Part shown: piece after piece, positions 13,644 through 17,220 of the stretch | How the letters are laid out: each line of letters opens with the position of its first letter | How positions within the stretch are numbered: the stretch's first letter is position 1 | Source of the DNA: Xanthomarina spongicola | GTDB lineage: Bacteria > Bacteroidota > Bacteroidia > Flavobacteriales > Flavobacteriaceae | Assembly: GCF_003148645.1 (NCBI RefSeq) | Contig: NZ_QGGP01000002.1 | Span: 67,001 to 131,000, forward strand | Length of the DNA stretch: 64,000 nt | Direction: 5' to 3' | Notes under the pieces: model-generated | Database searches by the model: none | What the model was told of the DNA's origin: nothing | What the model saw: only the letters and a program-made list of their open reading frames with translations | Position numbers and translations under genes: made by a program

Positions 13644-13877
13644 ATGGAATCAAGTTATCAAAAAATATATACAGGTAGTTTTATTATAGCGCAATTAATT
13701 GTAGATAAGTTGGAGGCAGTTGGAATAAGTCCAATTGTAAAAGACGAAACAGAATCTGGAAGATTAGCTGGATTTGGATCTTCAATTCCAGGTTATCAAG
13801 AAATTTTTGTTAGTGAAGACGAGCTGGATGAAGCAGTTCCTATAGTTGAAAGTGTAACTGCAGAATTACAATCTTAA
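13644..13877 (+). CDS. DUF2007 family protein
   Basis: 77-residue cytoplasmic protein. The pattern IYTGSFIIAQLIVDKLEAVGI, then PGYQEIFVSEDELDEAVPIVE, is that of the DUF2007 or putative signal-transducing protein family, a small alpha/beta domain often found beside signalling or phosphatase genes. It lacks a signal peptide and catalytic motifs. It stands alone, between the cold-shock gene and a converging ABC-F gene whose terminator it shares. The function is not known. Confidence 0.8.
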   Translation: MESSYQKIYTGSFIIAQLIVDKLEAVGISPIVKDETESGRLAGFGSSIPGYQEIFVSEDELDEAVPIVESVTAELQS

Positions 13878-13914: not shown

Positions 13915-15540
13915 TTATACAGTAACTGCATACATTTTATTTCGCAGTTCTTTAATTTTTGGGTTTTGCATATACTCATCGAAAGTTGTATGTCTATCAA
14001 TAACTCCATTAGGTGTTAGTTCTACAACTCTGTTTGCTACTGTTTGAGCAAACTCATGATCGTGAGTTGAAAACAAAACGGTTCCTTTAAAGTTTTTTAA
14101 TGAGTTATTAAAAGCTGTAATACTTTCTAAATCTAAATGGTTTGTTGGTTCATCTAACATTAATACATTTGCTCTAACCATCATCATTCTACTTAACATG
14201 CATCTTACTTTTTCTCCACCAGATAGGACATTCGATTTTTTTAGTGCTTCGTCTCCACTAAATATCATTTTTCCTAAAAATCCACGAATATGTACTTCTT
14301 CACGTTCTTCTTCAGTTTTAGCCCATTGACGTAACCAATCTACTAAAGATAAATCATTCTGAAAAAACTCACTGTTATCTAATGGTAAATAAGATTGTGT
14401 AGTTGTAATTCCCCAATTAAAAGTTCCAGAATCGGCCTTTTCTTTTCCATTTAATATTTGATAAAAGGCTGTTGTAGCTCTAGAGTCTTTAGAAAACAAT
14501 ACCACTTTATCTCCTTTCACTAAATTTAAATCTATCTTGCTAAAAAGTACTTCTCCATCTAAAGATGCAGATAAATTTTCAACGTTTAATATCTGGTCTC
14601 CAGCTTCTCTGTCTCTATCAAAAATAATTGCTGGATATCTACGACTAGAACGTTTAATATCTGCAATATTTAATTTCTCAATCATTTTCTTTCTACTTGT
14701 TGCTTGTTTAGATTTAGCAACATTGGCAGAAAAACGTCTAATAAATTCTTCTAATTCCTTTTTCTTTTCTTCAGCCTTTTTATTTTGCTGTGCATGTTGT
14801 CTTGCAGCTAATTGAGACGATTCGTACCAAAAGGTATAATTACCAGAAAAATGATTAATTTTTCCAAAATCAATATCGGAAATGTGAGTACAAACAGCAT
14901 CTAAAAAGTGTCTATCGTGAGATACAACAATAACACAATTATCATAGTTTGCTAAAAAGTTTTCAAGCCAAGAAATGGTTTCATAATCCAAATCGTTAGT
15001 TGGCTCATCCATTATTAATACATCAGGATTACCAAAAAGTGCTTGAGCAATTAGCACTCGTACTTTTTGTTTTCCGTCTAAATCTTTCATTAAAGTGTAA
15101 TGCAAATCTTCTGAGATTCCTAAGTTAGATAGCATAGCAGCAGCATCGCTATCTGCATTCCAACCATTCATTTCTTCAAATTGGACTTGTAACTCACCAA
15201 TTTTCTCTGCATTCTCATCAGTGTAATCAGCGTATAATGCATCAATCTCAGTCTTTAACTTAAATAGTGGTTTATTACCCATAATTATAGTTTCCAAAAC
15301 TGTATGATCATCGTAAAGTGAGTGGTCTTGTTCAAAAACAGACATACGTTTTCCAGGCTCTAAATGAACATGACCTGATGTAGGATCTTGTTTTCCAGCT
15401 AAAATCTTTAAAAAAGTAGATTTTCCAGCGCCATTTGCACCAATAATACCGTAGCAATTACCTTGATTAAAAGTCGTGTTTACTTCATCGAAAAGTATGC
15501 GTTTTCCAAATTGAACAGATAAATTAGAAACTGATAACAT
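13915..15540 (-). CDS. ABC-F ATPase, YbiT-like, with one degenerate ATP site
   Basis: Soluble two-domain ABC-F protein, close in layout to E. coli YbiT, a ribosome-associated translation factor. NBD1 has Walker A GANGAGKST (34-42) and Walker B VLIMDEP, but its signature is LDGKQK (154-159) instead of LSGGE. A basic linker (about 240-305) follows. NBD2 keeps the signature LSGGE (439-443), Walker B VLMLDEP and the STHDHEF switch, but its Walker A is FSKDSRATT (349-357), with no GxxGxGKS. Since each ATP site uses Walker A of one domain and the signature of the other, one site is intact and the other has lost both halves. 541 residues. The start at 15540 is clear. Confidence 0.93.
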   Translation of the reverse strand: MLSVSNLSVQFGKRILFDEVNTTFNQGNCYGIIGANGAGKSTFLKILAGKQDPTSGHVHLEPGKRMSVFEQDHSLYDDHTVLETIIMGNKPLFKLKTEIDALYADYTDENAEKIGELQVQFEEMNGWNADSDAAAMLSNLGISEDLHYTLMKDLDGKQKVRVLIAQALFGNPDVLIMDEPTNDLDYETISWLENFLANYDNCVIVVSHDRHFLDAVCTHISDIDFGKINHFSGNYTFWYESSQLAARQHAQQNKKAEEKKKELEEFIRRFSANVAKSKQATSRKKMIEKLNIADIKRSSRRYPAIIFDRDREAGDQILNVENLSASLDGEVLFSKIDLNLVKGDKVVLFSKDSRATTAFYQILNGKEKADSGTFNWGITTTQSYLPLDNSEFFQNDLSLVDWLRQWAKTEEEREEVHIRGFLGKMIFSGDEALKKSNVLSGGEKVRCMLSRMMMVRANVLMLDEPTNHLDLESITAFNNSLKNFKGTVLFSTHDHEFAQTVANRVVELTPNGVIDRHTTFDEYMQNPKIKELRNKMYAVTV

Positions 15541-15751: not shown

Positions 15752-15790
15752 TAGCTAATAGTAACTATATTGAGTTTTATTGAAAAAACT

Positions 15791-17220
15791 ATGAAGTATT
15801 TTTATTTAATATTATTATTTGTAGTAACTCTTGTTTCTTGTAAAAAAGATTCTAAACAGGAAGATGAAGGTGATGTTGCTTTTATTGGTGGAGAATTAAT
15901 AAATCCTACTTCTAGTTATGTCATATTATCAAAAGGAAAAGAAGTTCTAGATACAATCTCGTTAACAGATAAAAACAGATTTACTTATAAGATTTCTAAT
16001 ATGGAACCTGGGTTGTATACATTTCACCATGGTGTAGAATTGCAAATGGTGCTTTTAGAACCGAATGATAGTATTATGTTTAGGTTAAATACAATGGAAT
16101 TTGATGAGTCATTAGTATTTACAGGAAAAGGAGCGAAAAAGAATAATTACTTAATTAACTTATTTCTAAATAGCGAGATTGAAGAAAAAGCTATTTTGGG
16201 GTTCAGTCAATTATCTGCAGTCCTGTTTGAGGATAAGTTAGATTCTATTCGAGATAGTAAATTAGCCAAATTGCAAATATTTAGTGCTAAACAAACTACG
16301 TCTTCTTTGTTTAAAGAATTAGTTGAAGCTAATATAAACTATGATTATTATTTAAGTAAGGAAGTTTATCCTTTTGTTAATTATACGTATACTGAACGTG
16401 AAATTTTAGAAAGCTTACCAGAAGATTTTTATAGTTATAGAGGTCAATTAAACTATAATGAGAATAACTTACAAGATTATTTCTCTTATTATTCATTTTT
16501 AAAACATCATTTTGAAAATATGGCTTTAGCTGAACATTTTAAACGTTCTAAAGATAATATTTTTAATAGGCAGTCTTTAGATTATAGTTTAATTAAATTG
16601 AATTTAATTGATAGCCTGATGAAAAATGAAGATATTAAAAATTCTTTATTATAGCAGGTTCAACTATTGAATTTATAAGTAATAATAAAAATGTTGAAAA
16701 TTACGACGCAATCTTAAAATCTTTCATTGATAAGAGTACAAATACCGACCAAAAAGAATATGTAAGCAATATAGTTTCATCTCTAAAAGAATTAAAATCT
16801 GGAAATAAATTACCAGATGTTAAAGTTTTTGATGTTCATAATAACGAGTTGAATTTACGTTTCGTTACCAATAATAAACCAAGTGTGTTTTTCTTTTGGT
16901 CTCAAGCAAATTTAATGCATGTGAAAGAATGCCATGATAAAGTAAATGAACTTAAAATAAAATATCCAGAAGTAGCATTTGTTGGAATAAATGCTAATAA
17001 TGAGAATAAGGAACTTTGGAAAAAAACATTAGAAAAATATAATTTGTTAGATGAAACAGAATATATTTTTAAATATCCTAAAGAAGCTAAACAAGCCTTA
17101 GCCATATATCCAATAAATAAAGTAATTATTGTTAATGGCAAAGGGTTAATTGAAAATGCCCATACTAATATGTTTTCAATTAATTTTGAAGAAGAGCTTC
17201 TTGGTGCAATAAATCAATAA
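15791..17220 (+). pseudogene. Thioredoxin-like lipoprotein gene broken by a -1 frameshift
   Basis: The ATG at 15791 gives MKYFYLILLFVVTLVSC, a lipoprotein signal with lipobox LVSC. A DUF4369-like N-terminal domain and a helical middle follow. The frame ends at TAG 16652-16654. The next frame continues at once, from about 16639-16651, through FISNNKNVENYDAIL and a thioredoxin fold to TAA 17218-17220. One lost base near 16646-16652 explains the break: one extra T would restore an unbroken reading through AGSTIEFIS. The thioredoxin part reads VFFFWSQANLMHVKEC where TlpA/ResA proteins have WCxxC, so it would be redox-inactive even if intact. A sequencing error is possible. Confidence 0.75.

Follow-up and report, generated by a model that had tools for sequence, protein, structure and literature searches.

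The gene described here lies in a 64,000-nucleotide stretch of the Xanthomarina spongicola genome (contig NZ_QGGP01000002.1, positions 67,001 to 131,000; hereafter the window) and encodes an ABC-F protein, a member of the ATP-binding cassette (ABC) superfamily, with one canonical and one degraded ATP site. It is a minus-strand open reading frame (ORF), 15540..13915, with an ATG start and a product of 541 amino acids (aa).

The gene and its motifs

In ABC dimers the motifs are assigned to the ATP sites across the domain interface. Site I is composed of the Walker A, Q-loop, Walker B and switch histidine of the first nucleotide-binding domain (NBD1) and the signature of the second (NBD2). Site II is composed of the Walker A, Q-loop, Walker B and switch histidine of NBD2 and the signature of NBD1. 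The features of the protein are as follows.

13915..15540, minus strand: YbiT/YkpA-type ABC-F protein, 541 aa (PRK15064, 591 bits; sequence and fold match in the PDB to E. coli YbiT, 9njf)
15415..15441, minus strand: NBD1 Walker A GANGAGKST, residues 34-42 (G34, K40, T42), intact, site I
15328..15330, minus strand: NBD1 Q-loop Q71, intact, site I
15067..15081, minus strand: NBD1 signature position, LDGKQ (154-158) in place of LSGGE, degenerate, site II
15004..15018, minus strand: NBD1 Walker B LIMDE (175-179) with catalytic E179, intact, site I
14917..14919, minus strand: NBD1 switch H208, intact, site I
14641..14877, minus strand: inter-domain linker ABC_tran_Xtn (PF12848), the P-site tRNA interaction motif region of ABC-F proteins, residues 222-300
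14467..14493, minus strand: NBD2 Walker A position SKDSRATTA (350-358), no glycine or lysine at the motif positions, site II
14380..14382, minus strand: NBD2 Q-loop position L387, glutamine lost, site II
14212..14226, minus strand: NBD2 signature LSGGE (439-443), intact, site I
14149..14163, minus strand: NBD2 Walker B LMLDE (460-464; D463/E464), retained, site II
14062..14064, minus strand: NBD2 switch H493, retained, site II

Site I is canonical in every motif and site II is non-canonical in several, which places the protein among the degenerate-nucleotide-site ABC proteins by sequence. The initial annotation, made from the sequence alone, had described an NBD1 with Walker A kept and signature degenerate, and an NBD2 with LSGGE kept and Walker A replaced; both pairs of motifs are as it described them. 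Its statement that the opposite site had lost both halves holds for Walker A and the signature and fails for D463/E464 and H493, which are still present. The feature is not general in the genome. Four other ABC-F-like proteins of the same genome, named by similarity and not by a family model, keep both Walker A motifs and both signatures. In all, 20 other ABC-F-like proteins in the alignment, these four included, have both sites canonical; the sole departure, in L102, one of the four, is an alanine in place of the first glycine of Walker A 1.

Member of the ABC-F group by domain content: PF00005 is matched in two stretches and the PF12848 linker at 66.6 bits (cut-off 25.9). The top NCBIfam model is PRK15064 (YbiT), and the nearest solved relative by sequence is E. 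coli YbiT (PDB 9njf). The PRK15064 score of 591 bits falls below the curated cut-off of 762, and the protein is therefore named YbiT/YkpA-type and not a PRK15064 equivalog. Bacillus L131 (691 bits) and L019 (659 bits) also fall below the cut-off; E. coli (1067) and Oceanimonas (1030) exceed it. In the wide sense the protein belongs to the YbiT lineage, since it falls with E. coli YbiT and apart from Uup, EttA and other ABC-F proteins. According to excerpts of PMC11282234, ABC-F proteins in general carry consensus Walker A and B motifs in both ABC domains and bind two ATP. The window protein departs from this consensus, as its Walker A 2 is absent. The absence counts against the general statement and not against membership, which is a matter of descent and domains.

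Distribution and history of the altered site

Relatives within the phylum were sought with a YbiT model in 296 genomes of at least 90% completeness (match threshold E 1e-150). Matches were obtained in 86 genomes, all of which were read: the window's own, 29 others in its family, a further 6 in its order, 35 in its class and 15 in its phylum. None of the 86 has an internal stop within the match. The class is taken here to be Bacteroidia, in keeping with the named neighbours in the tree. Among the 210 non-matching genomes at least two belong to this class; the order of the list suggests that 190 of the 210 lie outside it. The NBD2 Walker A lysine is absent from all 71 Bacteroidia rows, that of the window included (T in 36, I in 14, V in 14, A in 2, L in 2, M in 2, S in 1), and the NBD2 Q-loop glutamine from 69 of them, again with the window protein. 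An intact second Walker A among close homologues, which would have spoken against the initial annotation, occurs in none of the 71. The 15 same-phylum rows outside the class are mixed: Walker A 2 is fully intact in five (38-39% identity to the window protein), five have the lysine without the preceding glycine, and five have neither.

A scan of contigs from named genomes extended the comparison beyond the phylum (best 80 of 597 stretches; phylum names taken from the record titles). Among these best 80, the degenerate type was found in 19 Bacteroidota, 25 Firmicutes, three Spirochaetes and one Desulfobulbaceae metagenome-assembled genome (MAG); Walker A 2 was intact in 16, of which 11 were proteobacterial (gamma and beta groups); the remaining 16 were other ABC-Fs. 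The YbiT-family set thus comprised 151 rows, formed of the 86 phylum matches, the scan rows and E. coli. Rows without the glycine before the NBD2 Walker A lysine were defined as degenerate (129 rows); the glycine is present in 22. Proteobacterial YbiT rows, including E. coli, retain Walker A 2. None of the 151 rows departs from the canonical residues at 12 positions of site I, five positions being unreadable in one truncated row. Within the degenerate type the Walker A 2 lysine is absent from 111 of 129 rows, the NBD2 Q-loop glutamine from 125, the NBD2 catalytic glutamate from 31 (Q13, D6, T6, G2, K1, R1, S1, H1) and the NBD2 switch histidine from 30; an exact SGG in the NBD1 signature is kept in only one. 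A trait confined to Bacteroidota is rejected, as the same loss occurs in the Firmicutes, the Spirochaetes and the Desulfobulbaceae MAG. The protein is a variant within ABC-F, wider in distribution than the initial annotation had held.

Site II is broken differently in different lineages (E464 or H493). Glutamate is replaced by glutamine in clostridial rows and in rows that seem to group with Pinibacter, and by threonine or serine in what appear to be Bacteroides-like rows. Histidine is replaced by arginine in rows placed around Sphingobacterium and Mucilaginibacter; most losses in presumably Lachnospiraceae-like rows are of the same kind. The natural glutamate-to-glutamine form of the NBD2 Walker B (DQPTNHL; 13 of 129 rows, L047, L061, L064, L066, L113, L116, L119 and L122 among them) is the single-site form of the laboratory trapping mutation; some lineages thus carry the same change as laboratory mutants. 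Losses of E464 (14149-14151) and H493 (14062-14064) coincide in one of 129 rows, where about seven would be expected under independence; this near-absence may reflect lineage inertia. APG forms the core of the NBD1 signature in 10 of the 22 rows whose Walker A 2 is intact, E. coli being one of the 10, and even a YbiT with two Walker A motifs therefore has an unequal site II.

A tree was built from 115 of the 171 aligned rows with the motif columns masked; it is a quick tree, with long branches flagged among the intact rows and the outgroup. The 86 tree rows without G355 form one clade (Shimodaira-Hasegawa-like approximate likelihood ratio test, SH-aLRT, 100; branch 0.53), which contains Bacteroidota, Firmicutes, Spirochaetes and the Desulfobulbaceae MAG. 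Sulfurimonas is the next to join it (SH-aLRT 91), followed by proteobacterial YbiT (98 rows, SH-aLRT 98), and the YbiT lineage of 107 rows is separated from 8 outgroup rows at SH-aLRT 100. A careful tree of 47 rows, without the long-branch rows, supports the degenerate clade at 100/100. On the 115-row tree G355 changed once; lysine 356, E464 and H493 changed at least eight times each, and eleven site I positions did not change at all. A single change of G355 followed by repeated changes elsewhere therefore points to one event that removed the glycine, after which the parts that remained were broken in ways that differ between lineages.

The two halves of site II can change separately, because E. 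coli combines an altered signature with an intact Walker A 2 and Bacillus L131 shows the reverse, with an exact SGG in the NBD1 signature, a broken Walker A 2 and aspartate for the NBD2 catalytic glutamate. An ordered loss, signature before Walker A, is unsupported, since L131 keeps SGG. Coupled loss of the paired site II motifs was not detected in six independent-pair tests with 4 to 12 usable pairs each (median p 0.5 to 1). Of the matching degeneration proposed in the initial annotation, the alteration of both halves in the window protein stands; the coupling of the two losses is not borne out by L131, E. coli or the pair tests. The initial statement that E. coli YbiT has the signature loss only is upheld by NC_000913.3, where Walker A 2 is intact (GTNGVGKST) and the NBD1 signature reads VAPGW, the altered residues themselves being different.

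The replaced loop and the working of the two sites

In the 30 sequences of the window's family S350, S353, A355, A358 and F359 are invariant. Across the 71 Bacteroidia rows S350 is found in 64, A355 in 67 and F359 in 62, and most other loop positions vary. In the 30 family sequences the loop has a ratio of nonsynonymous to synonymous polymorphism (pN/pS) of 0.188; the corresponding values are 0.178 (NBD2), 0.158 (whole gene) and 0.049 (intact P-loop 1). Purifying selection acts on the loop much as it does on NBD2 at large; the loop is neither unconstrained nor singled out for conservation. In the AlphaFold2 model of the window protein (mean predicted local distance difference test score, pLDDT, 86) the NBD1 helix starts at K40, and the NBD2 helix, which starts at 353, has run for three residues when it reaches the lysine position 356. 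In Oceanimonas L106, a control whose Walker A 2 is intact, the lysine itself, K358, begins the NBD2 helix. The phosphate-binding loop thus appears, in the model, to be shortened into the start of the helix. The first fold match is the ribosome-bound E. coli YbiT 9njf (template modelling score, TM, 0.69; root-mean-square deviation, rmsd, 12.5).

The protein is probably a translation factor of the YbiT/YkpA ABC-F type that hydrolyses ATP at one site only. This reading, proposed in the initial annotation, has withstood every sequence test run, with site I without exception in the 151 rows and site II broken in 129. ATP would be bound on NBD1 (K40, Q71, E179, H208) and sandwiched by the NBD2 signature, and the two NBDs would close. 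The closed protein is expected to bind the ribosome at the E site, the linker pointing to the peptidyl-transferase centre, and hydrolysis at site I to reopen it for release from the ribosome. Site II, formed of the NBD2 P-loop position and the NBD1 signature position, would hydrolyse no ATP and most likely bind none; the P-loop of NBD2 would have become a short turn and helix start, kept by selection as a structural interface. For the narrower proposal, that only one ATP is bound and site II is empty, the chances are put at about even. The wider one, that a multi-phylum ABC-F branch (Bacteroidota, Firmicutes of the YkpA type, Spirochaetes) runs on one ATP with site II as a permanently nucleotide-free protein-protein interface, could equally well prove right or wrong on the sequences compared. 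If it is right, two ATPs are not needed for the ABC-F cycle.

Several observations weigh against the one-site reading. All 29 relatives in the family, like the window protein, still have D463, E464 and H493, so that site II may be a weak or unusual nucleotide site. Of the 129 degenerate-type rows, 18 keep the Walker A lysine (13 named, and 5 from the phylum but not the class), and ATP binding may persist in that part of the clade. In ABC exporters ATP binding is often preserved at the degenerate site, according to excerpts of PMC7756269. Constraint on the loop is no greater than on NBD2 overall. The AlphaFold2 models are ligand-free and were built from 44 and 38 sequences, and the predicted fold agrees with 9njf without reproducing its domain arrangement.

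In the main alternative, site II would permanently hold ATP or ADP as a stationary hub and would have lost hydrolysis alone, so that two nucleotides would be carried and one turned over. A role of this kind is ascribed to the degenerate site in asymmetric ABC exporters (excerpts of PMC7756269), and the same three NBD2 residues and the lysine of the 18 rows would fit it. By that analogy it is conceivable and yet unlikely: the P-loop lysine is gone from all 71 Bacteroidia rows, the Q-loop glutamine from 69, and in the model the loop falls three residues short of the length of a P-loop. The invariance of five loop positions in 30 of 30 family sequences indicates that the loop has some function, and it could be imagined that the protein has ceased to act on the ribosome in an ATP-driven way and that NBD2 uses the conserved SKDSRATTAF loop to bind a different ligand or partner. 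Such a role would not need site I, the NBD2 signature and the ABC-F linker, all of which are kept, and beyond the family most loop positions vary, S350, A355 and F359 staying common; it is regarded as very improbable. A sequencing error, frameshift or pseudogene at the second P-loop has a negligible probability, given the stop-free matches in all 86 genomes, the presence of a like loop throughout the family (30 of 30) and purifying selection; the error that the initial annotation had allowed for at this position is ruled out by conservation of the loop across relatives.

The single-site reading has consequences for experiment. A natural clade with one site dismantled makes the role of each ATP testable by single mutations, and EQ2 constructs of YkpA-type proteins may effectively be single-site mutants. 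Site asymmetry is well known in exporters; a ribosome factor would provide an independent case.

Neighbouring genes and comparison with known systems

A small ORF that ends at 13877 converges on the gene, whose immediate neighbours are on the opposite strand. The adjacent plus-strand ORFs 15770-16654 (lipoprotein-like by eye) and 16849-17220 (thioredoxin-like by eye) lie in different frames; neither has a Pfam match, and they might be one interrupted gene. Elsewhere in the window, 7740-8129 matches the monothiol bacilliredoxin BrxC (PF11009, 124 bits) and adjoins a ClpB-like gene named by eye.

No report of a degenerate site in YbiT/YkpA and no paper behind PDB 9njf was recognised in an open-licence paper library. 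The words Walker, catalytic and NBD are absent from the main text of PMC11381351; in Murina et al. (PMC6723617) 'Walker A' and 'degenerate' are absent and 'Walker' occurs once, in a reference. The term ABC-F is absent from the degenerate-site review PMC7756269.

E. coli YbiT shares with the window protein the domain order, the linker, an intact site I and an altered NBD1 signature. It differs in its intact NBD2 Walker A, Q-loop, Walker B and H-switch and in the signature itself (VAPGW against LDGKQ). B. subtilis YkpA/YbiT is reported to assist with charged stretches (excerpts of PMC11381351). Four control genomes, B. subtilis among them, match the YbiT model at E 1e-150, and only one of the four passes the PRK15064 cut-off; E. 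coli is the control that passes, and B. subtilis therefore presumably lies below it. The Bacillus relatives L131 and L133, compared in place of B. subtilis 168, belong to the same clade and also have no canonical Walker A 2, but keep more of site II, with SGG or NGG in signature 1 and, in L133, the lysine.

Pdr5-like degenerate-site exporters resemble the window protein in having one site broken in Walker A, signature and further motifs and the other intact; they are membrane transporters, and in human full-length proteins the degenerate site is always nucleotide-binding site (NBS) 1 (excerpts of PMC7756269). ABCE1 is likewise a ribosome-acting twin ABC ATPase with two unequal sites, but, unlike the arrangement proposed here, both of its sites occlude ATP and site II is a low-turnover control site (excerpts of PMC6124641). 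M. tuberculosis EttA has the same architecture as the window protein, and its NBS-I is the NBD1-side site (switch His H214 in NBD1), the one kept here (excerpts of PMC8782954). In the same excerpts both EttA sites have conserved motifs and engage nucleotide in a staggered manner with 30S rotation. The engagement of EttA NBS-II through its Q-loop has no counterpart in the window protein. A one-site factor is predicted to lack an EttA-like state with site II engaged.
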